From contig CAMDCN010000006.1 in the NCBI GenBank assembly GCA_945890485.1, positions 186,001 to 250,000 on the forward strand: a DNA stretch of 64,000 nt, in the 5' to 3' direction. Below are positions 27,854 through 39,521 of the stretch, one piece after another. The notes beneath the pieces are model-generated. The model was given only the letters and a program-made list of their open reading frames with translations. It ran no database searches and was not told the DNA's origin. The DNA comes from Candidatus Sulfopaludibacter sp. SbA3. Its GTDB lineage: Bacteria > Acidobacteriota > Terriglobia > Bryobacterales > Bryobacteraceae. The number at the start of each line of letters is the position of its first letter. The stretch's first letter is position 1. The position numbers and the translations under genes were made by a program.

Positions 27854-27882
27854 TTGACCGTTCTGTGTTTTCCCCGTATACT
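27854..27882 (+). promoter_or_regulatory. Sigma70-type promoter of the qhp operon
   Basis: TTGACC (27854-27859), 17-base spacer, TATACT (27877-27882). Predicted transcript start is near 27889, about 90 bases before the qhpA ATG. It is the best promoter match noticed in the window. Confidence 0.8.
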
Positions 27883-27977
27883 CGACTTCAATCGGCCACG
27901 GCGCCCTCCTCCCTGTACCCGCATCATTCCTTGTCTGATCTTCCGATACTCTAGTTGAATTGCTACAGAGAGGATTC

Positions 27978-29705
27978 ATGCGTTTATTGGTGTTTGTTCT
28001 CCTCGCCGTAATGGGGAGCGCACAGCCGCCGGCCGGTGGAGCGCGGCAGGCTGAACCGAAGGAACCTTCCGAACCGGGCATTCCGGTGCAGAGCCAGCTT
28101 GTGAAAGACAAGTGCTCGGGTTGCCATCGGGCCGATGCAAAAGGAAACCTGACGCGCATCTCCTGGGAGAGAACAACGCCGGAGGGCTGGCAACAGATCA
28201 TTAAACGGATGGTCCGGCTGAATGGTCTGGTGCTAAAGCCGGAAGAAGCGCGAGATATTGTCAAGACTTTAAGCGAGACCCATGGCCTGGCGCCGGAAGA
28301 AGCAAAGCCGGTGGCTTGGTATTGGGAGAAACGGTATATCGACGGCGAGACGCACCCGACGGTGGGGATTGGCGATGCCTGTGCATCGTGCCATCCGATG
28401 GCGCAGGCTCTTTCGTGGCGGCGTTCGCGAGAGGAGTGGGACTTGCTGGTCGATATGCATCGCGGATACTTCCCTGTGGTGGAAAACACCTCGTTCCGGC
28501 GGCCTTCCTACCCGGCACAGGGGGGCGGCAGCGGCGGGGCTGCAGCCGGGCCAACCCCAGGCCAATCGGCCAACCCCGCCGCCACCGGTACTCGAGCTGG
28601 ACTGGGACAGATGTTAGGGGCCGTGGATTTCCTGGCCAAGGGAAATCCGCTGCATACCCCTGCCTGGGCGGCCTGGCAAGGATCGCGCAGGGAGCCGAGG
28701 CTGGCGGGTAAGTGGTTAGTTGCCGCTGATCTTGCCGGGAAGGGGCGGTTCGTGGGCGAGATGGTGATTGCGGGCGGCGCCGGCGGCGAGTTCACGACGA
28801 AGACGACGCTAACCTCCCTGAAAACCGGGGAGAAGGTTTCGCGGGAAGGGAAGTCGGTTGTTTATACCGGCTATGCCTGGCGCGGTCGATCGACCGCGGC
28901 TGGCAGGGAAGAGCGTGAGGTGATGTCGTTCTCCGCCGATCAGTTGTCGGCAGAGGGCCGCTGGTTTTGGGGCGGATACAGTGAGTTCGGATACGACGTG
29001 AAGCTAGTGCGCGCGGGCGATGGACCGGTGTTGCTGACGGCCGGGCAGGGCGGACTGAAGATCGGCATGAAGGGTACGGAACTGAAGATTTACGGGGATA
29101 GTCTTCCGGCGGGATTGCAGCCGGCGGATATCAACTTAGGGCGCGGTGTAACGGTATCGCAGATTGTGGCGCAGACGCCGTCGATGCTGACGGTGAAAGT
29201 GGACGTGGCGGCCGATGCGCTGCCGGGGAAGCGGCCGATTGCGATTCGTCGGGCGACGCTGCCGGCAGCGGTCGCGGTGTATGGGTCGGTGGATTTCATT
29301 AAGATTCCGCGGACGTCTCATGCCCGGCTGGGCGGCACGACGCATCCGAAAGGATTCTTCCAATATGAAGCCGTGGCCTGCTCGAATGGCATTGATAGGA
29401 AGCCGAATACGGCGGACGATATCGAGATTGGACCGGTGGCGGCCAATTGGTCGATGGAAGAGTTCGCGGCCAGGATGGGGGATGACGACAAGGAGTTTGT
29501 CGGCTCGCTGTCTGCTGACGGGCTATTTACCCCGAATGCAGAGGGGCCGAACGAGAACCGAAAGTTTGGTTCCAACAACTTTGGCGACGTTTGGGTGGTG
29601 GCGACTTACGACGGTGGTCCGAAGCCGTTGGTGGCCAAGAGCTATCTGGTGGTTTCTATACCGCTGTATGTACGATGGGATCAGCAGCCGGAGGCAGGCC
29701 GATGA
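27978..29705 (+). CDS. qhpA: Quinohemoprotein amine dehydrogenase alpha subunit (di-heme)
   Basis: ATG 27978 follows AGAGAGGA. The 575-residue protein has a signal peptide (LLVFVLLAVMGSAQ) and two c-type heme motifs in its N-terminal domain: CSGCH (Cys46, Cys49, His50) and CASCH (Cys135, Cys138, His139). The remainder is beta-rich, with Ig-like domains typical of the QHNDH alpha subunit. A Gly/Ala/Pro-rich insert near residues 165-195 looks unstructured. The alpha subunit carries electrons from the CTQ cofactor of the gamma subunit to an external c-type carrier. First gene of the operon; overlaps qhpD (ATGA). Confidence 0.92.
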   Translation: MRLLVFVLLAVMGSAQPPAGGARQAEPKEPSEPGIPVQSQLVKDKCSGCHRADAKGNLTRISWERTTPEGWQQIIKRMVRLNGLVLKPEEARDIVKTLSETHGLAPEEAKPVAWYWEKRYIDGETHPTVGIGDACASCHPMAQALSWRRSREEWDLLVDMHRGYFPVVENTSFRRPSYPAQGGGSGGAAAGPTPGQSANPAATGTRAGLGQMLGAVDFLAKGNPLHTPAWAAWQGSRREPRLAGKWLVAADLAGKGRFVGEMVIAGGAGGEFTTKTTLTSLKTGEKVSREGKSVVYTGYAWRGRSTAAGREEREVMSFSADQLSAEGRWFWGGYSEFGYDVKLVRAGDGPVLLTAGQGGLKIGMKGTELKIYGDSLPAGLQPADINLGRGVTVSQIVAQTPSMLTVKVDVAADALPGKRPIAIRRATLPAAVAVYGSVDFIKIPRTSHARLGGTTHPKGFFQYEAVACSNGIDRKPNTADDIEIGPVAANWSMEEFAARMGDDDKEFVGSLSADGLFTPNAEGPNENRKFGSNNFGDVWVVATYDGGPKPLVAKSYLVVSIPLYVRWDQQPEAGR

Positions 29706-31153
29706 GTCCAGTAACCGACGTTTTGTATTCCCAGGCCGAGTTCCGCCGGTTTGCGGCTTCGGGCGAGGAGTTCCTCTACCTGGTTCCGAGTGGCGGCATT
29801 TTCGGGGTGAGTGAGCCGGTGCGTGACGCGCTGGATCTGCTGGCCGCCGGACCGATGGCTGTCGAAGCGTTGTTGGCGGGATTGGTGGCAAAGGGTTATT
29901 CGATGGCCGACGCCGATGGAGTTGTGACCGAACTGCACCATGCGCGGGTGATTCGGGATCAGACAGGCTATGCGGACCCTCCGCAGGAGGCGGTGGAGGA
30001 CTTTCCGCTGCAGTCGCTCGTCTTGAACCTGACCAATCAATGTAACTTGTCGTGCCAGTACTGTTATGAGTACGGGGAAGACAAGGTGGCGACGCCGGAC
30101 GGCAAACCGAAGTTTATGGACGAAGAGGTGGCGCGGGCGTCGGTGGATCATCTGTTCGCTTCCGCGCAGGGGCGGCGGGCCGTGCATATTACATTCTTCG
30201 GCGGCGAGACGCTGATGAATTTTCCGCTGCTGCGGTGGGTGGTGGAGTACGGTAAATCAAAGGCGCGAGAAACAGGACAGTATCTGGATTTCTCGCTGAC
30301 GACGAATGGGACGCTGCTCTCGGAGCAGGTGATTGAGTTCCTGGCCGATAACGACATTGGCGTGACGGTGTCGATGGATGGGGCCAAGGAGTCACACGAC
30401 GCGTTGCGCGTATTCGCGAACGGAAAGGGCAGCTACGACATTGTGGCGCCGAAGGTGAAGGCGCTGATTGCGCGGCACAAGAGCAGGCCGATTGCGGCGC
30501 GGGTGACCATGACGCAGCAGGTGACCGACGTCAAAGCGATCTTCCATCATTTGCGGCACGAGTTGGGCTTTGCCGAAGTGGGATTTGCGCCGGTGACGGC
30601 GGCGCCGGACCGGCTCTACACGATTCAGACCAAGAAGATGGATTCCGTGCTCGATCAGTTCCGAGAGTTGGCCTATGAGTATCGGGACTATGCCGTGCAG
30701 GGCAAGGCGCACGGATTCTCAAATGTCTCTGACACGTTGGCTGAGTTACACGCGGGGATCAATAAGTCGCATCCGTGCGGAGCCGGCTTAGGGTTAGTGG
30801 GCGTGGGGCCGAGCGGCGACATCGCGCCGTGCCACCGCTTCGTGGACTCCGATGAACATGCGCTGGGCAATGTGCTCGATGGCGGCATGGACAAAGGGAA
30901 ACAGAAGGAATTCTTGGCTAAGGGGCATATCGGCGCGAAATACGATTGCCACTCGTGTTGGGCGCGTCCGCTGTGCGCGGGCGGATGCCATCACGAAGCG
31001 TTCGTGCGCTACGGCGACACCGGCCACCCGAATTTGCATTTTTGCGATTGGATCCGCGACTGGACCGGCATCTGTCTAGAGATCTATGGAGACATCGCCG
31101 TGCAGAATCCGGCGTTTCTCGACGCGTTTGAAAAACGGAAGGCACTCCAATGA
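29702..31153 (+). CDS. qhpD: Radical SAM/SPASM thioether-forming maturase QhpD
   Basis: The 483-residue protein has the radical SAM cluster motif CNLSCQYC (Cys114, Cys118, Cys121), the glycine-rich SAM segment TFFGGETLMN, and a C-terminal SPASM region rich in cysteines (HPCGAG, APCHRF, YDCHSCWARPLCAGGCHHEA). The N-terminal 95 residues may hold a peptide-recognition element. In QHNDH systems this enzyme forms the three Cys-to-Asp/Glu thioether cross-links of the gamma subunit. It sits directly before its substrate gene and overlaps it (ATGA). Confidence 0.93.
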   Translation: MSPVTDVLYSQAEFRRFAASGEEFLYLVPSGGIFGVSEPVRDALDLLAAGPMAVEALLAGLVAKGYSMADADGVVTELHHARVIRDQTGYADPPQEAVEDFPLQSLVLNLTNQCNLSCQYCYEYGEDKVATPDGKPKFMDEEVARASVDHLFASAQGRRAVHITFFGGETLMNFPLLRWVVEYGKSKARETGQYLDFSLTTNGTLLSEQVIEFLADNDIGVTVSMDGAKESHDALRVFANGKGSYDIVAPKVKALIARHKSRPIAARVTMTQQVTDVKAIFHHLRHELGFAEVGFAPVTAAPDRLYTIQTKKMDSVLDQFRELAYEYRDYAVQGKAHGFSNVSDTLAELHAGINKSHPCGAGLGLVGVGPSGDIAPCHRFVDSDEHALGNVLDGGMDKGKQKEFLAKGHIGAKYDCHSCWARPLCAGGCHHEAFVRYGDTGHPNLHFCDWIRDWTGICLEIYGDIAVQNPAFLDAFEKRKALQ

Positions 31154-31497
31154 AACACCTGAAAGCGGTGAATAAGAAGGCGCGGCGCATTGAAGAGTAT
31201 GTCGCTTCTGCCTATGGGGATATCTATGGGCAGCAGGAGCGGGGCGGATCACGTCCGGCCCCGCGGCCGCACTACCCGATTGGCTGCTCGGTAGTATTTT
31301 CACCGGGGTGGGAGGTGGACTCCGCCGGCGGGACGGCGGGGCTGTGCCAACCGGCGGAGCGCGATCTTTACGATTGCTACATCACCTGCTACTGGCCAGC
31401 CCAGGTACCGGACCACTACAACAATTATCCGGACTGGACTTCGAAATGCGCGAGCGCAACGAAGGATTGGCGGGATATTGATCTGGTTTTTCCATAG
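31150..31497 (+). CDS. qhpC: Quinohemoprotein amine dehydrogenase gamma subunit precursor
   Basis: The 115-residue precursor has a basic leader of about 39 residues and a mature part closely matching the Paracoccus gamma subunit. With a constant offset of 39, every key residue is kept: Cys46-Glu55, Cys66-Asp72 and Cys80-Asp88 for the three thioether cross-links, and Cys76 with Trp82 for the cysteine tryptophylquinone (CTQ). The motifs SPGWEVD, LCQPAERDLY and WPAQV are clear. Cys100 is extra. The leader is expected to be removed by the subtilisin-like protease QhpE. Confidence 0.95.
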   Translation: MKHLKAVNKKARRIEEYVASAYGDIYGQQERGGSRPAPRPHYPIGCSVVFSPGWEVDSAGGTAGLCQPAERDLYDCYITCYWPAQVPDHYNNYPDWTSKCASATKDWRDIDLVFP

Positions 31498-31512
31498 CGC
31501 GGAGCGGAGACA

Positions 31513-32610
31513 ATGAGAGCACTCTACTGGGCTTTTCTCATGGCCGCGGCCACGTGGGCGGCTGATCCGACGTTGGTATACGTGGGGACTTGGCCGAAGA
31601 CGCTCGCCGTGATGGACGAAGCTTCCGGCAAAGTGATCGACCGGATCCCGTTGCAGACCGATGTGGCGCGGACTCTGCTGCCGACGGCGGACAAGAAGAA
31701 GTTGATCGTAATCACGGTGAAAGACGCTGGGATTGAGACGATCGACCTGGCGACGCGGAAAGTGGTGGACTCGTTCCGGCTTGGATCGGCGAGTAAACGC
31801 GTCCGCATCCAGGGCGCCGTGATGGACCCGGCGGGGAAGTTGCTGTATCTGACGACGAGCACGGCGAACCGGCTGGTGGATCGGTTTGAGATTGAGATGC
31901 CGAAGTTCGCTGTTGTGGACTTGGTGGAAAAGAAGATCGTGAAGACGGTGGAGTTGCCCAAGCAGGTGGCGCCGAACGCGGAAGGTGGCGGGCGCCGCGG
32001 GGGCGGCTTGCGGATTTCGCCCGACGGCAAGTTCCTTTGGTTCTTCCGCGAGAACATCTACATTGTCGATACGACGGACTTCAAAGTGGTGGAGACGATT
32101 CCGCTGGAGAAGCCGGATTCGTTCGATATGACGGGTATTTCGCTGAACGGGCAGGACGATCCGAACGAGGCGCCGGGGAAGATGACGGCCCTGTTCTCTT
32201 CGGAGGATCCGGTGGTGCATCGGCGGATCTTCGGCGTGGCGGAGATTGACCTGACGACGCGGAAGATCCAGTTCAGCCCGATTGGTCCCGGCGTGCCGGG
32301 GGGCGACGGGAGCCTGCGGCTTTCGCCGGACCGGAAGTTTGCCTATGGTTTCACGATTGAGGGCGCGCAGGGCGACCGGCACTGCGAGTTCTTCGTGATC
32401 GACATGGTGTCAAAGAAAGTGGTGAACCGGGGACCATTCCCGGGGCGGACGCGGTTCAGCACCGGGCTGACCAGCGACGGGAAGTACATCATCGTCTATG
32501 GGGCGGGCCACACGATGGAACTCTACGACGTGAAGACGCTGCAGTTGGCGAAGGACATCGACATGGATGCCGACATGACGACGCCGTTGCTGGCGATTGT
32601 GCCGCGCTAG
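31513..32610 (+). CDS. qhpB: Quinohemoprotein amine dehydrogenase beta subunit (beta-propeller)
   Basis: The 365-residue protein has a signal peptide (LYWAFLMAAATWAAD) and repeated YVTN-like blades (LVYVGTWPKTLAVMDEASG, GKLLYLTTSTANRLV, SPDGKFLWFFRENIYIVD, SPDRKFAYGFTI). This fits the seven-bladed propeller beta subunit that holds the gamma subunit near the active site. GGAG precedes the ATG. A short glycine/arginine-rich loop (EGGGRRGGGL) is unusual. Confidence 0.9.
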   Translation: MRALYWAFLMAAATWAADPTLVYVGTWPKTLAVMDEASGKVIDRIPLQTDVARTLLPTADKKKLIVITVKDAGIETIDLATRKVVDSFRLGSASKRVRIQGAVMDPAGKLLYLTTSTANRLVDRFEIEMPKFAVVDLVEKKIVKTVELPKQVAPNAEGGGRRGGGLRISPDGKFLWFFRENIYIVDTTDFKVVETIPLEKPDSFDMTGISLNGQDDPNEAPGKMTALFSSEDPVVHRRIFGVAEIDLTTRKIQFSPIGPGVPGGDGSLRLSPDRKFAYGFTIEGAQGDRHCEFFVIDMVSKKVVNRGPFPGRTRFSTGLTSDGKYIIVYGAGHTMELYDVKTLQLAKDIDMDADMTTPLLAIVPR

Positions 32611-32613
32611 GCC

Positions 32614-33516
32614 ATGGAAGTGACGTTGCAGGTTGGGTGCGCGGGGGAGGCGAACGCTTCGTTGGCCGAAGCCCTGGATTGGGAAACGAGTGGCAAGTTG
32701 CGGCCTTTGCTGGATGCCTTGGCGCCGCTGCTTCAGGACTTGGAGCCGTCGCGGACCAGCTACGGGGCTGAGTTCTGCGAGCACCTGTTGCCGTCGCCGG
32801 AGGCGTTGCGTGCGGTGCGGGAGGCTTGCGCGCGGCCATTTACGCTTCTGACGCCGTATGTGGGGGATAGCGGTTTGGCGATGTTGCGGGCTCTGTTTCC
32901 CGTGCTGCGGGCGGGCGATGAGGTGATCTTCAGCGACTGGGGCGTTCTGAATGTATTGCACCGGGAGTTCCCGGAATTGGTGCCGGTGCAAGGGCGGCTG
33001 CTGAATAAGAGCCTGCGGGATCCGCGCGTGATGGGGCTGTATGCGGAGGCCGGTCCGGGGCCGACGTTGACGGTGTTGCAGGGATCGAATCTGGACAACC
33101 GGGCTTACACGGCGATGCTGCGGCGGTTTGGCGTGAAGCGGGCGGAGATTGACGGGCTGCCGCAGGGGAACGACTTGGCGACGGCGTCGATGGAACTGAC
33201 GGCGTGTTTGCCTTATGGGTTCATCAGTACGGCGCGGGTGTGTCAGGCGGCGGGGTTGGGCTACCGCAAAGGAGAGAAGTTCCAACCGGCAGCGCCGTGC
33301 AAGCAGGAGTGCCAGACCTTCCTGTTGGAGCATGCCTACACGAATTCTCCATTTGAAAACCGGGATCAGAAGTTCTGGTTGAAAGGGAATTCGTATTTCT
33401 ACTTCCACACGCCGGAGATTGTGAAGGCGCTGTTGCGGGCGGCTCGCGAAGGGGCCTTGGCGCGGCTGCATTTGCAGACGCGGCTGCCGATGTTGGCGAA
33501 CGGGTTGGCCGCATGA
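32614..33516 (+). CDS. U32 family protein, UbiV-like iron-sulfur partner, in the qhp operon
   Basis: The 300-residue protein resembles the shorter member of the U32 family pairs. Its cysteines fit the UbiV [4Fe-4S] pattern: Cys55 in SYGAEFCEHLL (UbiV has Cys39 in a GExVC-type motif), then Cys210 (ISTARVC), Cys229 and Cys233 (APCKQEC), compared with UbiV Cys180, Cys193 and Cys197. No signal peptide, so cytoplasmic. It starts 3 bases after the qhpB stop and overlaps the larger U32 gene (ATGA). No protease residues are seen. It probably forms a heterodimer that hydroxylates an aromatic ring without O2; the link to CTQ formation is inferred from position. Confidence 0.75.
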   Translation: MEVTLQVGCAGEANASLAEALDWETSGKLRPLLDALAPLLQDLEPSRTSYGAEFCEHLLPSPEALRAVREACARPFTLLTPYVGDSGLAMLRALFPVLRAGDEVIFSDWGVLNVLHREFPELVPVQGRLLNKSLRDPRVMGLYAEAGPGPTLTVLQGSNLDNRAYTAMLRRFGVKRAEIDGLPQGNDLATASMELTACLPYGFISTARVCQAAGLGYRKGEKFQPAAPCKQECQTFLLEHAYTNSPFENRDQKFWLKGNSYFYFHTPEIVKALLRAAREGALARLHLQTRLPMLANGLAA

Positions 33517-34523
33517 AGATTCTGGCGCCCATCCGCGAGATCGACGAGCTGGAGATGCTGCATGCGGCGGGGGCCGAGGAGCTGTTCTGTGGCTTCGTGC
33601 CGAAGGATTGGATGGATCGATATCAGGGCGCGGTCTGGCTGAACCGGCGCTCGACCAAGGGATCGTCGCTCGAAACGCTGGGCGATATGCGCGCCTTGGC
33701 CGATGCGGCGCACGCGAAAGGGTTGCCGATTTTCGTTACGTTCAACGCTCCCTACTACACGGCGGAACAGACCGACCTCGTGATGGAGCTGGCGCAGCGG
33801 TTGAGTGAAGAGTGCGGCGTGGACGCGTTCATCGTGAGCGATGTGAACCTGATGCTGCGGCTGAGCGAGGCGCGGCTCCATGCGGGCACGCACGTGAGCT
33901 CCGTGGCCGCCACGCTGAATCTGGAGGCGATTCGGTTCCTCTTGAACTTCGGCCCCAGCCGGGTGATCTTGCCGCGGTCGGTGACGTTGGCGGAGATCGC
34001 GAGCATCAAGAAAGGCGTCGGGAATTCGTGCGAGATTGAAGTGTTTATGTTGAACGACGGGTGCGCGTTTGAAGAAGGGTTTTGCGCGACGACGCATCAC
34101 CATTCCGTGGGCGCGTTCTGCACGAGCCTTTCGGGGATGCAGACGGACTTCGAGTGGCACGGACGATACTTTTCCGTGCGACGTCATGCCTGGTTGCGGA
34201 GGAATCTCGAGGACTACCGGGAGTGGGTTTGGTATCTGAACGGCAACGGCTGCGGGGCGACGGCAAAGGGCTTGCCGTACGGGCCTTGCGGACTTTGTGC
34301 AGTGCCGGATCTGCTCAAGAGCGGCGTCGATTCGTTGAAGATTGTGGGCCGGGAGGCGTCGCCGCTGAAGAAGCTGGCGAGTGTGAAGATGGTGGCGGAT
34401 ATCGTGCATCGAGCGCGGCACGGCGTGCCGAAACCCGTGGTGATTGAACGGGCGATCAGCTTGCGGAAAGCGCCGGAGCACTGCCATTCCGGCTACATGT
34501 GCTATTACAAGGTCGATGCCTGA
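33513..34523 (+). CDS. U32 family protein, UbiU-like iron-sulfur hydroxylase subunit, in the qhp operon
   Basis: The 336-residue protein has clear U32 features: N-terminal strand and GAEELFCGF (UbiU-like GADEVYxG), the His motif LHAGTHVSS, the segment IEVFMLNDGCAFEEGFC with Cys184 and Cys191 (the same spacing as UbiU Cys169 and Cys176), Cys203, YGPCGLC (Cys259, Cys262), and the family signature SLKIVGRE. This supports a [4Fe-4S] cluster. UbiU-UbiV insert hydroxyl groups into ubiquinone precursors with prephenate as oxygen donor. Here the natural target would be the gamma-subunit tryptophan; that is an inference. Overlaps qhpF by 8 bases. Confidence 0.8.
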   Translation: MKILAPIREIDELEMLHAAGAEELFCGFVPKDWMDRYQGAVWLNRRSTKGSSLETLGDMRALADAAHAKGLPIFVTFNAPYYTAEQTDLVMELAQRLSEECGVDAFIVSDVNLMLRLSEARLHAGTHVSSVAATLNLEAIRFLLNFGPSRVILPRSVTLAEIASIKKGVGNSCEIEVFMLNDGCAFEEGFCATTHHHSVGAFCTSLSGMQTDFEWHGRYFSVRRHAWLRRNLEDYREWVWYLNGNGCGATAKGLPYGPCGLCAVPDLLKSGVDSLKIVGREASPLKKLASVKMVADIVHRARHGVPKPVVIERAISLRKAPEHCHSGYMCYYKVDA

Positions 34524-36174
34524 ACAAGCTCCGGTGAGGCTGCGGGAGTACCGGCGGACGCTGCCCTTTCTGCGGCCGTATGCGCTACAGCTGGCGGGCA
34601 TTATCGGCCTGAGTGTGGTGTCCACCGGGGCGGGTTTGCTGGGGCCGCTCGTGAACCAGCAACTCATCGATAAGGGGCTGATTGGCCGCGACCCGAGCGC
34701 GCTGCTGTGGACGGCAGGGGCGATGGCGGGGTTGGCGGTGTTTGGCTTCCTGACCAATGCCTGGTCGAGCTACACGTACGCGAAGATTTCGGCGCGGGTG
34801 CTGTTCTCGATGCGGCTCGAACTCTACCAGCATTTGCAGCAGATTTCTCCGCGGCACCATGCGCGGGCACGGATGGGCGATTTCATCTCACGCCTGAACA
34901 ACGACGTGGCCGAGGTGCAGCGCGTGAGCGCCGATACGATTCTGGCGCTGATGGCGAACGTAGTGTTTCTGGTGGGCGCAGTGGTGCTGATGGTGGGTAT
35001 CAGCCCGCGGCTGTTTCTGCTGAGTATTGTGCTGATGCCAGTGGCGCTGTGGGCATCGCGACGGGCGCAACATAAGCTCGCGGCCCACGTGAAGCGGATG
35101 CGGGAGCGGAGTTCGGCGATCGGCAGCTTTCTGATCGAGTCGCTAACCTGCTTGAGGCTAACAGTGTTAGCCAACGCGCAGCAGCGGGAAGTGGAACGGT
35201 TTGGCAAGCACAACCAGAGCTTCGTCGACGCGATGCTGGCGATGCAGATGACGAGCCTGTGGGCCGGGGCCATCCCGACGACAGCCGTCACGGTCTCGAC
35301 GGCAGCCGTATTTCTAGCCGGCGGGTGGGAGGTGCTTGCCGAGACGATGACGTTGGGAACGCTGGTGGCCTTTCTTGCCTATCATGGGCGGCTGCTTTCG
35401 CCGGTGCAGAATCTGATGTCGCTGTATGGGTCGCTCGTCACCGGAGCGGTCTCGCTTCGCCGAATGTTTGAACTGCTCGAGATTCCGGTTGAAGTGAGGG
35501 ATCCGGTGGATCCCGTGGCGGTGAACGAGTGGCGGGGCGAGCTGACCGTGGATGCCGTCACCTTCGGCTACAACGCGCCTGTGCTGCGAGGTGCTTCGAT
35601 GCAACTTGAAGCGGGCAAGACCTACGTGCTGACGGGGGCGAGCGGGGCGGGGAAGTCGACGCTGGTGGACCTGCTCGTCCGGTTGTACGACCCGGCCGAG
35701 GGGACGGTGAGCCTGGATGGCCATGATGTGCGGCGGATTCCGCTGCAGGTATTGCGTCAGCAGATCGCCGTGATTGAGCAGTCGCCGATCCTGTTCCATG
35801 GCACCGTAGGCGAGAACATCGCGTATTCTCGGCCGGATGCTTCGCGGACGGAACTGGAAGATGCTGCCCGGGCGGCGGCATTGGGACTGACGTTGGATAC
35901 TGAGGTGGGCGAGCGGGGCTCAGCGCTGTCGGCGGGGGAGCGGCAACGGGTGGCGATCGCACGGGCCTTGCTGCGGGATCCGCGGGTTCTGATCCTGGAT
36001 GAACCCGTGGCGGCTCTTGATGGCGTGGCTCGCTTGGCGATTCGGCAGACGCTCGAACGGGTGTTGGCCGGGCGGACCGCGTTGATCATCTCGCATGAGC
36101 AGTTCTGGGAGGGCGGCGAGGCGCTGGAGTTGGTGGACGGACAGGTTCGGAAGGTGGCATGTCCGTCGGTGTAG
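34516..36174 (+). CDS. qhpF: ABC exporter for the gamma subunit, QhpF-like
   Basis: This 552-residue half-transporter fuses a six-helix exporter membrane domain (residues 20-300) to an ATPase with Walker A GASGAGKST, signature LSAGERQRVAIARAL, Walker B VLILDEPVAALD and H-loop IISHEQ. In the known system QhpF is needed for gamma-subunit maturation, probably exporting the cross-linked polypeptide to the periplasm. ATG 34516 overlaps the U32 gene; a start further upstream inside that gene is possible but lacks support. Confidence 0.88.
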   Translation: MPEQAPVRLREYRRTLPFLRPYALQLAGIIGLSVVSTGAGLLGPLVNQQLIDKGLIGRDPSALLWTAGAMAGLAVFGFLTNAWSSYTYAKISARVLFSMRLELYQHLQQISPRHHARARMGDFISRLNNDVAEVQRVSADTILALMANVVFLVGAVVLMVGISPRLFLLSIVLMPVALWASRRAQHKLAAHVKRMRERSSAIGSFLIESLTCLRLTVLANAQQREVERFGKHNQSFVDAMLAMQMTSLWAGAIPTTAVTVSTAAVFLAGGWEVLAETMTLGTLVAFLAYHGRLLSPVQNLMSLYGSLVTGAVSLRRMFELLEIPVEVRDPVDPVAVNEWRGELTVDAVTFGYNAPVLRGASMQLEAGKTYVLTGASGAGKSTLVDLLVRLYDPAEGTVSLDGHDVRRIPLQVLRQQIAVIEQSPILFHGTVGENIAYSRPDASRTELEDAARAAALGLTLDTEVGERGSALSAGERQRVAIARALLRDPRVLILDEPVAALDGVARLAIRQTLERVLAGRTALIISHEQFWEGGEALELVDGQVRKVACPSV

Positions 36175-36752
36175 CCATTATCGATAGCGGGGTGCACCCG
36201 GCTCATCCGCATGTCAGGGATATTGCCGCGGGACGGAGCTTTGTGCCCGGCGAGGAACCGGAGGAGTACCTCGACTACCTGGGCCATGGGACGGCCGTGG
36301 CGGGGGCCGTCTGTGAGAAGGGCGCGCCGCTGCGGCTCTATATCGCCAAGGTGTTTCAGCGGCGGTTGGTGACGTCGATCGAGGTACTCCTCGCGGCGCT
36401 CGACTGGAGCCTGGAGCAGCCTGTGCAGATCGTCAATCTGAGCCTCGCGACTACGAACGAAGCGCATCGCGCAGCGTTTGCGACGCGGGTGGCGACGGCG
36501 GCTGAGCGGGGGATTCAGATCGTGTCCCCGAAGCTGGGACTGCCGGGGAGTTTGCCGGGAGTAGTGGGCGTAACGATTGACGATACGCTGCCACGGGACC
36601 GCTGCAGCGCTGAGTTCGCAGCTTGCGGTTGGCCCCGGCCAATACCGGGGCAACCGCAGGAGCGAAATCTATACGGGATCAGCTTCGCCGTTGCCAACGT
36701 GACGGGGTGCCTGGCCCGCGATCTGGCGCAAAAGCATGAAACGGCCAGTTAG
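36159..36752 (+). CDS. qhpE: Subtilisin-like protease QhpE (gamma-subunit leader cleavage)
   Basis: The compact 197-residue subtilase has all three catalytic residues: Asp9 (VAIIDSGVHP), His43 (LGHGTAVAG) and Ser175 (LYGISFAVAN). The usual oxyanion Asn segment is replaced by IVSPKLG. No signal or propeptide, so it acts in the cytoplasm, as does Paracoccus QhpE, which removes the leader of the cross-linked gamma subunit. It overlaps qhpF by 16 bases and ends the operon. Confidence 0.88.
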   Translation: MSVGVAIIDSGVHPAHPHVRDIAAGRSFVPGEEPEEYLDYLGHGTAVAGAVCEKGAPLRLYIAKVFQRRLVTSIEVLLAALDWSLEQPVQIVNLSLATTNEAHRAAFATRVATAAERGIQIVSPKLGLPGSLPGVVGVTIDDTLPRDRCSAEFAACGWPRPIPGQPQERNLYGISFAVANVTGCLARDLAQKHETAS

Positions 36753-37152: not shown

Positions 37153-38058
37153 CTACACCGCCATCCCGCGAAGTCGGGATTCCAGAACACGGTCCGGCGT
37201 GAAGTGCTCGATTCTTAGGTCGACTCCGCTTTCTGCCGCAGCGATCAGCGCTGATTCGGGTATTAAACCGATTAGTTCACTCGTCGCGACACTTACTCCC
37301 AGTTCCGCGGCGATTCTCTCAATGGCCTCTAACACCACATGCGGCGGAGTCACCTCAAAGTCGGTCAGATTCATCGATACCTGAGCCTGCCCCCTTTCCG
37401 GCAGGTATAGCCCCAAGGCTTTGACACACGCCAGGCCTCCGTTGGCGTGCCGAATTCGCCGGGCGATCTCCTTGGCCGCATCGACGTTTCCATCGGCCAG
37501 GAAGACATTCCAGGCGATTAAAATCTTGCGAGCGCCGACGGCGACCGCGCCGGCGGTCGGGTGGGGAGCGGCATTTCCGAAGTCGGGCACCGGGAAGGGC
37601 GGGCGCGTCGCGGACCTGCGGACATCGGCGAGGTTGCGACGGCTTTCCACCTGCGCGGCCGCGTCATAGAAAAAGACCGGAACGGCGTATCGGTTCCATA
37701 TCTCGGCCCCCACCGCGTGCGCCAGCCACGCGCACTCCACCAGCGTTATGTCCCGAAGCGGCACGAACGGGACAACGTCGGCGGCGCCAATGCGCGGATG
37801 GACGCCGGAGTGTTTGGTCAGGTCAATCCGCGCCACCGCTTCACCTACTGCTACGACGGCCGCCTCGCCAAGGGCCTCCGGCCGCCCGGCAAATGTGATC
37901 ACACTGCGATGATGGTCCGGGTCCGCGTTCTGGTCGAGGACGCTCACGCCGGGCACTGCGGCGATGGCCGAGGAGATCGCGTCGATGATGCTTAGGTCGC
38001 GGCCTTCGGAAAAGTTGGCGACGCACTCGACCAACGGGGCTAGCCCGCGCTCAGGCAA
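37153..38058 (-). CDS. ftcD: Glutamate formimidoyltransferase
   Basis: The 301-residue protein is the formiminotransferase domain alone: VECVANFSEGRD, DPDHHRSVITFAG, the catalytic His in KHSGVHPRIGAADVVPFVP, and DFEVTPPHVVLEAI. It transfers the formimino group of N-formiminoglutamate to tetrahydrofolate in histidine breakdown. The start is TTG 38058, 8 bases into the upstream HutI-like gene and preceded by GGAG. The cyclodeaminase part of animal FTCD is absent. Confidence 0.9.
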   Translation of the reverse strand: MPERGLAPLVECVANFSEGRDLSIIDAISSAIAAVPGVSVLDQNADPDHHRSVITFAGRPEALGEAAVVAVGEAVARIDLTKHSGVHPRIGAADVVPFVPLRDITLVECAWLAHAVGAEIWNRYAVPVFFYDAAAQVESRRNLADVRRSATRPPFPVPDFGNAAPHPTAGAVAVGARKILIAWNVFLADGNVDAAKEIARRIRHANGGLACVKALGLYLPERGQAQVSMNLTDFEVTPPHVVLEAIERIAAELGVSVATSELIGLIPESALIAAAESGVDLRIEHFTPDRVLESRLRGMAV

Positions 38059-39331
38059 CGCGCCACTCCGGCGCGGTTTCCCGATGGACGACTTCTCCCC
38101 GGCGGATGACCGTTGAAACGAGATTCATTCCAAAATGATAGGGGATTTCGCGGTAGTCGGGTACGGACAGGATCAGCAGATCCGCGTACTTGCCGGCTTC
38201 GAGTGAGCCGGTCTCGCGCGAAACGCCCGCAGCGCACGCCGCATTGTAGGTCGCCGCCTGGATGGCTTCCGCCGGGGACATGTTGAGCAGATTGCAGGCT
38301 AGCGAAATCACCATCTGCATGTTGCAGGTGGGACTGAAGAGCGGGTCGTAGCCGGATGCCAAGGCGGTTGCGGCTCCGCCCTCAATCAGCCGCCGTGCCG
38401 GCGGAAGACGGTTCAACCGGAGATGATAGGCCAGCCCCGGAAGAAGAACCGCGACGGTCGAAGAGTCATACAGATGACCGATTTGATCGTCCGTTACATA
38501 GTTGCAGTGCGAAACGCTCTCCGCTCGCATCGCCACTGCCAGTTCGACGTTAGAATCGGCTTGATGCAGCGCGGCGTGAAGTCGCGGCGTGAAGCCGGCC
38601 AGCCGCGCCGTCCGCAGGAACTGAATCGTTTGGCTCGTCGAGAATCCGCAAGCCGCGGGGTCGGCGTCGATGTAGGGAATCGTTTTGCGGCGCGCCACGC
38701 GCGGCAGCATCTCCTCCGTCAGGAAGTTCAGGTAGCCGGCGGCGTTTCCTTCAAACTCTTCCGGTAGAGCCCGGGCGCCGAACCACGTTGGAATCACTGA
38801 AATCGGGCAGTGCTGTAAGTCTTCCAAAACCCGGACACACTTCATTTCCCCTGTGTCGTCCAGACCGTATCCTGTCTTCGCTTCGATCGTCGTTGTACCG
38901 TGGCGAAGGCAGCGCAGCAGGGTGTTCCTCGCCTGCAACTCCAGCCGGCGCGCGGGCAAATTTCGAACGTTGCGCACTTGAGCCTGCAAGCCTTCCCGCA
39001 GCACGCCGCTTTCTTCCAGCGAGGCGCCCAATGTCCGCATCTCAAACTCGTTTACACGGGAAGGCCCGCTCACGAGCATCGTGTGTGGGTCGATGAACCC
39101 CGGCATAACTACACAGCCATCGGCGTCAATCACTTCGGCATTACGGGCCTCGGCGAGGTTTTCGATGCGTCGGCCGGGGCCCACCGTGACGATGCGCCCA
39201 TCTTGAATCAGGAGAGCTCCGTCAGAGACTACCGCCAAGTCGCTCATCGCGTTGGCACGGCGTGGCGCTGGGATTCCCCGGAGGGTCAGCAGTTGCCTGG
39301 CTCCGCGGATCAGTATCTTCTTAGAGGACAT
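38051..39331 (-). CDS. HutI-like amidohydrolase with altered metal site
   Basis: The overall sequence follows imidazolonepropionase (GRIVTVGPGR, VVMPGFIDPHT, SGPSRVNEFEMR, TTTIEAKTGYGLD), and the neighbouring formimidoyltransferase supports histidine degradation. Key HutI residues are changed: HTH is HTM (His83, Met85), GAH is GAR (WFGARALPEEF), and the metal Asp of TDFNPG is lost (ASGYDPLFSPT). It is either a divergent enzyme or no longer a metal-dependent imidazolonepropionase. ATG 39331 lies 6 bases after GGAG; a frame extending further upstream has no RBS. Confidence 0.7.
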   Translation of the reverse strand: MSSKKILIRGARQLLTLRGIPAPRRANAMSDLAVVSDGALLIQDGRIVTVGPGRRIENLAEARNAEVIDADGCVVMPGFIDPHTMLVSGPSRVNEFEMRTLGASLEESGVLREGLQAQVRNVRNLPARRLELQARNTLLRCLRHGTTTIEAKTGYGLDDTGEMKCVRVLEDLQHCPISVIPTWFGARALPEEFEGNAAGYLNFLTEEMLPRVARRKTIPYIDADPAACGFSTSQTIQFLRTARLAGFTPRLHAALHQADSNVELAVAMRAESVSHCNYVTDDQIGHLYDSSTVAVLLPGLAYHLRLNRLPPARRLIEGGAATALASGYDPLFSPTCNMQMVISLACNLLNMSPAEAIQAATYNAACAAGVSRETGSLEAGKYADLLILSVPDYREIPYHFGMNLVSTVIRRGEVVHRETAPEWRVA

Positions 39332-39521
39332 GACGGGCTCCGGAGAAGCGCCGCAAAAAGGATTCCGAACAAGGATATCCACGTCCTGGCAAACTAAACA
39401 GCTGGCGGGACGCACCGGGGGAAAGTGCCGGACCCATAAAAATATATTGAAAGGCTAAACGATGAGCGTACCACAATCGTTTGTTTTCTAATAGTTAATA
39501 TCGATTAATGGTGCCGGGAGT

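Follow-up and report, generated by a model that had tools for sequence, protein, structure and literature searches.

Quinohemoprotein amine dehydrogenase operons with a U32 protein pair in the place of QhpG: a candidate oxygen-independent route to cysteine tryptophylquinone

The subject of this analysis is a 64,000-nucleotide stretch of the genome of Candidatus Sulfopaludibacter sp. SbA3 (Acidobacteriota; contig CAMDCN010000006.1, positions 186,001 to 250,000; hereafter the window) and, within it, an operon for quinohemoprotein amine dehydrogenase (QHNDH) that contains two U32-type genes and no flavin monooxygenase gene. The operon fills positions 27978–36752 of the plus strand as a single, tightly packed run of eight genes in the order qhpA-D-C-B-V-U-F-E, adjacent genes overlapping or being separated by 3–15 bases. 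Its first gene, qhpA (27978–29705), encodes the alpha subunit, a di-heme cytochrome with a signal peptide (TIGR03908, 501 bits against a cut-off of 274; PF09100, PF09098, PF14930 and PF09099), and starts with the ATG at 27978, an alternative TTG lying at 27960. It is followed by qhpD (29702–31153), encoding the radical S-adenosylmethionine (SAM) enzyme for three thioether crosslinks (TIGR03906, 595 bits, cut-off 453), and by qhpC (31150–31497), encoding the gamma subunit precursor (PF08992 over its cut-off; NF037958, 133 bits, cut-off 50). With QhpA, QhpC and QhpD all above their equivalog cut-offs, the locus belongs to the qhp operon class. The products of qhpB (31513–32610), the beta subunit and a divergent beta-propeller, and qhpE (36159–36752), a subtilisin-like leader protease (PF00082), have TIGR03907 (55 bits, cut-off 223) and NF049966 (129 bits, cut-off 165) as their best models, both under cut-off, and the position of these genes is kept in 50 or more operons. 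The ATP-binding cassette (ABC) transporter encoded by qhpF (34516–36174; PF00664, PF00005), which has a conserved place in qhp operons, is presumed to export the modified gamma subunit. The U32-type genes, here called qhpV (32614–33516) and qhpU (33513–34523), lie between qhpB and qhpF. A sequence-only reading of this DNA had described such a coupled operon with two U32 genes inside and no flavin monooxygenase gene, and both the gene packing and the family matches agree with it. The single promoter that it placed ahead of the operon was abandoned: the sigma-70-like match upstream of qhpA (27854–27882, plus strand; TTGACC-17-TATACT, 10 of 12 bases) is weak and lies within chance level, with one site found and 2.4 expected, and was dropped as evidence.

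QhpU scores 104 bits against PF01136 (gathering score 22.4) and matches UbiU with an E value of 5e-32 in profile comparison, and its predicted structure (pLDDT 83) has 5d88, the one solved U32 protein, as top match (Z 17.6, 210 residues, 3.1 Å). By sequence and predicted fold, its U32 identity is beyond doubt. Residues Glu176, Cys184, Cys191 and Cys203 align with UbiU, TrhP and RlhA, and the U32 hydroxylase motif E-x7-C-x6-C (E176, C184, C191) is found in 48–49 of 50 loci. In UbiU, the cluster ligands are C169, C176 and C193 (PMC6747719); in TrhP, E162, C170 and C177 are essential (PMC6599085). Across the 50 loci, C184 and C191 are each kept in 49 and C203 in 47, the losses being truncations or two pairs from genomes without QhpC. 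The cysteines listed in the sequence-only reading (Cys184-x6-Cys191, Cys203 and Cys259/262) are all present in the window protein and conserved among loci. Further conserved cysteines (Cys26, 259, 262, 324 and 330) may suffice for a second iron–sulfur cluster, one that UbiU has not. A U32 tree with UbiU, UbiV, RlhA and TrhP had been proposed as a check; in the resulting tree of 84 proteins, QhpU forms one clade (100/100), sister to UbiU (97/83). It is neither a UbiU equivalog (NF047963, 70.6 bits, cut-off 440) nor a TrhP equivalog (NF011996, 52.6 bits, cut-off 534), and in the Rhodocyclaceae host, QhpU is accompanied by a true UbiU, which falls into a different clade of the tree.

QhpV is the divergent partner. 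The window protein has no Pfam or NCBIfam match, and a PF01136 search of 25 QhpV members gave one match, at an E value of 0.035. It is regarded as U32-like because profile–profile comparison matched it to a combined U32 profile with 95.7% probability and because its predicted fold has 5d88 as top match (Z 11.9, the next barrels following closely at 10.8); Foldseek alone returned generic barrels only. The structure search found no solved UbiU or UbiV structure for comparison. Cysteines C210, C229 and C233 are present in 50 of 50 loci and C55 in 49 of 50, with a spacing of C-x18-C-x3-C next to the C-xn-C-x12-C-x3-C pattern of UbiV. In the 84-protein tree, all QhpV proteins group together (100/99), on the side of UbiV. 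The cysteine pattern and the gene pairing make "UbiV-like" a fair description, with orthology to UbiV unproven.

The presumed substrate of the pair is conserved as well. By position and alignment, the cysteine tryptophylquinone (CTQ) of the window QhpC would be formed by Cys76 and Trp82 in the motif C76-x3-C80-x-W82, and the thioether pairs by Cys46-Glu55, Cys66-Asp72 and Cys80-Asp88, with the spacing known from Pseudomonas QhpC. The CxxxCxW motif thus bears out the earlier identification of Trp82 (codon 31393–31395, plus strand), the presumed hydroxylation target, as the CTQ Trp of the gamma subunit. In the alignment, this Trp is invariant in 41 of 41 loci with the pair and in 29 of 29 loci with a flavin hydroxylase, and the CTQ Cys and the thioether partners are likewise retained in pair loci as in flavin loci. 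A U32 pair beside a QhpC lacking the Trp, named in advance as a counterexample, was never encountered in the 41 pair loci.

To compare the occurrence of the pair and of QhpG across genomes, one survey was seeded on QhpC and a second one on QhpU, the latter in about 85,000 species genomes. In the window's phylum, QhpC was detected in 29 of 396 genomes: four carry the pair only (the window's own genome, G289, G259 and G377), 23 carry the flavin hydroxylase only, one (G116, the same genome as G411; locus L085) combines a flavin operon with an orphan pair, and the qhp locus of one (G188) runs off the end of its contig. Genome G376, which at first seemed to have neither system, has QhpG on another contig and is flavin only. 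In the class of Aneurinibacillus, QhpC occurs in 6 of 349 genomes, all six with the pair; in the phylum of a Desulfuromonadales host, it occurs in 8 of 297, of which six have the pair, one is cut by a contig edge and one has A, C and B only. As the pair was already known from four of these Bacillota genomes and from one of those in the Desulfuromonadales phylum, the independent count there is 7 of 7. Proteobacterial plasmid operons carry the flavin hydroxylase in 5 of 5 cases, and no further QhpC was detected among 321 genomes from the poorly covered class of the Rhodocyclaceae host. Altogether, the 45 resolvable genomes or operons of the QhpC-seeded survey divide into 16 with the pair only, 28 with the flavin hydroxylase only, one with both and none with neither (Fisher p 2.6e-11, not corrected for kinship).

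The QhpU-seeded scan yielded 37 loci, none with QhpG within 10 kb, and QhpC is present in 33 of the 37 genomes. The other four are two metagenome-assembled genomes (MAGs; 2.9 and 3.1 Mb) and the hosts of two very divergent pairs. These QhpU/QhpV-like pairs (L103:899-2636, in a Chloroflexota MAG, and L104:4841-6820, in a Myxococcota-labelled MAG) show 28–31% identity, both lack Cys203, and they may act on another substrate. Combining both surveys, pair and QhpC occur together in 41 genomes from Acidobacteriota, Bacillota, Desulfuromonadales/Geobacter and relatives and one Rhodocyclaceae, at least four phyla, with V and U adjacent inside the qhp locus in most of them. The search for QhpG covered every one of these genomes and came back empty in 39. 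This survey, the check suggested at the outset, strongly favours replacement of QhpG; the counterexample named for it, a qhpG co-occurring with the pair, was found in two of the 41 genomes, both MAGs. The pair stays with qhp genes even where the locus is broken, as in Bryobacterales F-183, with A-D-C-B-V (L107) apart from U-F (L076), and in Blastocatellia AA13, with A-C-B (L108) apart from D-V-U-F-E (L075).

Several other arrangements were observed during the surveys. Two genomes, G377 (L050, L055) and G404 (L110, L078), have one locus with A-D-C-B and no hydroxylase, F or E, and another with D-C-V-U-F-E and no A or B. Complete QHNDH operons in the order C-A-D-B-V-U-F-E are found in Gram-positive Bacillota (Aneurinibacillus, Brevibacillus and Bacillus; L087-L092, L094, L095, L102, L135 and L136). 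The qhpU gene of G952 (L141:6833-7759) has a break (a stop or frameshift close to 6986) between positions 281 and 283 of the model, which may stem from a sequencing error or mark a gene in decay.

The trees of the operon's other proteins indicate that the two systems were exchanged repeatedly. Counting well-supported branches only, the label changes between pair and flavin at least 5–6 times in the QhpD tree; in the QhpA tree, it changes at least 3–4 times. Two genomes of the same genus differ, with the flavin system in G187 and the pair in G289, and in the Novosphingobium order A-D-C-B-G-F-E the flavin gene occupies the exact V-U slot of the window. The flavin genes of qhp operons fall into three separate clades; in the part of the tree around the window, it is a short form, about 340 residues long, that has taken over from the pair. 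This short flavin monooxygenase (L035:11970-12938; L051:5060-6076; L053, L054 and L056, next to qhpE) scores 68 bits against the QhpG model (cut-off 240; L051), matches no Pfam family, and is perhaps a separately recruited third CTQ hydroxylase. Near-exclusive occurrence and repeated switches in the trees both agree with the sequence-only proposal that the U32 pair stands in the place of QhpG, and on these comparisons such a replacement is very probable.

A profile search of the window's own genome detected no QhpG, either in the operon or elsewhere. Its closest flavin protein, G000:C2:40741, was rejected as qhpG, with 131 bits against NF049967 (cut-off 240). That this halogenase-like protein performs the CTQ hydroxylation and the pair is a backup could be argued from its 128 bits against the QhpG profile built here, and is extremely improbable: among NCBIfam models it comes nearest to a CmlS-type halogenase (200 bits), and in most pair hosts no protein like it was detected. 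The flavin adenine dinucleotide (FAD) protein matches outside the operons of G259 (a LodB/GoxB protein beside LodA) and G401 (halogenase-like) were likewise rejected.

QhpG introduces two O2-derived oxygens onto the Trp of crosslinked QhpC, in complex with QhpD (PMC7876137). There is precedent for U32 proteins in the role of such an enzyme, as UbiUV replaces UbiIHF (PMC6747719, PMC10470549) and TrhP parallels the O2-dependent TrhO (PMC6599085). Most simply, QhpU-QhpV would do the job of QhpG on Trp82, with an organic donor. We hypothesize that the pair is an O2-independent, iron–sulfur-dependent hydroxylase of QHNDH maturation, which we regard as probable. QhpD would crosslink the gamma-subunit precursor before or during hydroxylation, and a QhpU-QhpV heterodimer, with putative [4Fe-4S] clusters at the conserved cysteines, would hydroxylate the Trp82 indole, the likely positions being C6 and C7, those used by QhpG. 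By family precedent, the likely oxygen donor would be prephenate (PMC6599085, PMC11574389). The leader would then be removed by QhpE and the peptide exported by QhpF, and the CTQ (Cys76-Trp82) would close in the periplasm or outside the membrane. That the pair carries out the full dihydroxylation independently of O2 is a narrower claim, toward which we lean.

Several observations weigh against this reading. QhpG and the pair occur together in two MAGs: in G411, a flavin operon is accompanied by an orphan pair on another contig (L042, L085), and in G412, a QhpG-type flavin gene (253 bits, cut-off 240) lies about 20 kb from the pair (L086, L109), with no LodA beside it. The G412 flavin gene has a C-terminal extension. 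Such dual systems resemble organisms with both UbiUV and UbiIHF, or with both TrhP and TrhO. The UbiV character ascribed to QhpV in the sequence-only reading stands as far as Cys55, 210, 229 and 233 are concerned, and the direct match is weak: the UbiV and QhpV profiles compared with each other give a 4–7% probability, although UbiV on its own is a good match to the combined U32 profile, and long-branch attraction may account for their grouping in the tree, where both branches are long. The fourth-cysteine arrangement of QhpU differs from that of UbiU, and heme-copper oxidases occur in the majority of pair hosts, of which the window's genome is one. We also know of no U32 enzyme with a peptide substrate. 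Even for the U32 family as such, proof that the proteins act directly as catalysts with prephenate is still incomplete (PMC11574389).

Alternative roles of the pair were weighed against these data. The pair might add the first Trp82 oxygen only, with the second coming from water or autoxidation at quinone closure, as in other protein-derived quinones; UbiUV and TrhP/RlhA introduce a single hydroxyl per position (PMC6747719, PMC6599085), and the number of oxygens is not fixed by anything in the sequence. We consider this possible but rather unlikely, as both oxygens come from QhpG in the known system (PMC7876137), for which the pair substitutes without any other new operon gene, and several ring positions are open to UbiUV (PMC6747719). 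A role as accessory to QhpD, in cluster repair or substrate handling, with hydroxylation by another oxygenase or spontaneously with O2, would be in line with the help that QhpG gives to crosslinking by holding QhpC (PMC7876137) and with the oxidases of most pair hosts, which so meet O2. It appears improbable given the reciprocal swapping of the pair with a hydroxylase in the trees, the kinship of QhpU to O2-independent hydroxylases, the oxidase-free host G797, and the absence from 39 of the 41 pair genomes of any other flavin enzyme resembling QhpG. Finally, the pair could act on another molecule, such as a quinone or RNA, and be placed in the operon for co-regulation only. All characterised U32 hydroxylases do act on quinones or RNA, and the two distant pairs mentioned above come from genomes without QhpC; however, 33 of 37 QhpU genomes have QhpC, the only replacement of the pair is QhpG, and the Rhodocyclaceae genome has its own UbiU besides QhpU, which makes this role very improbable. 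We thus retain a QhpU-QhpV hydroxylase of Trp82 as the preferred reading.

With COX1 in most hosts, the pair was rejected as a marker of anaerobes. UbiUV likewise stays active under O2, of which it makes no use (PMC10470549). In one pair host, G797, which consists of one contig of 4.24 Mb and has a complete pair operon (L137), neither COX1 nor cytochrome bd scores over cut-off, and further pair hosts are Geobacter, Geopsychrobacter and Desulfuromonadales MAGs; an O2-using QhpG would hardly be of use in G797 and Geobacter-like hosts. In G259, a LodA-type CTQ oxidase gene lies beside a LodB/GoxB flavoprotein gene (L115:2753-5759), separate from the pair-bearing qhp operon, and this cell has an O2-dependent and, apparently, an O2-independent CTQ route.

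Other loci were noted in passing. The 8.9-Mb genome G853 has QhpA, C and B at L143 and L144, with no QhpD, pair or QhpG nearby. On a Bradyrhizobium plasmid (L040:5169-11606), genes for a radical SAM protein resembling QhpD, a flavin protein resembling QhpG and a ferritin-like protein are clustered, and no QhpC was seen; this may be an uncharacterised modified-peptide system. In the window, a formiminotransferase gene and an amidohydrolase gene (probably imidazolonepropionase) lie 3' of the qhp operon on the minus strand (37153–39415), as in histidine breakdown.

A full-text literature search found no paper connecting QHNDH with U32 proteins, nor is the QhpU/QhpV pair covered by any model in NCBIfam (June 2026 release). 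As described so far, this tryptophylquinone is made with O2, by way of QhpG (PMC7876137); if the U32 pair acts in its place, it would be a second route to CTQ and would explain QHNDH in Geobacter-like and other anaerobes. The U32 hydroxylases, a poorly understood group, would also gain a soluble, genetically encoded peptide substrate, so that donor and cluster chemistry would become accessible to mass-spectrometric and isotope tests. The range of QHNDH is extended to Bacillota and Desulfuromonadales. Taken together, we find it somewhat more plausible than its opposite that the pair is the first U32 hydroxylase to act on a ribosomal peptide and part of a fully O2-independent tryptophylquinone route, that it may predate flavin hydroxylases recruited repeatedly into qhp operons, and that QhpU may hold a second cluster.

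QHNDH and U32 hydroxylases are each known, and it is their combination that is new. LodB/GoxB flavoproteins mature the CTQ of LodA/GoxA by hydroxylating the precursor Trp in a WWPAQ-like motif, and they differ from the qhp pair in being flavin- and O2-dependent. The canonical qhp operon of Paracoccus denitrificans and Pseudomonas putida shares with the window the subunits A, B and C, QhpD, QhpE, QhpF and identical CTQ and thioether residues, but it encodes QhpG, an O2-using FAD monooxygenase, where the window has two U32-type proteins (PMC7876137). UbiU-UbiV is likewise an adjacent gene pair, UbiU being the sister clade of QhpU with the same E-x7-C-x6-C motif and UbiV resembling QhpV in the C...C...C-x3-C layout (PMC6747719, PMC10470549). 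It differs in its lipid quinone substrate, as opposed to a presumed peptidyl Trp, and no UbiT accompanies the qhp pair; QhpU has five extra conserved cysteines, and QhpV and UbiV can hardly be aligned. TrhP and RlhA belong to the same prephenate-dependent U32 hydroxylation family, but are single proteins acting on RNA bases, and with TrhP and TrhO an O2-independent and an O2-dependent route to one product are already known (PMC6599085).

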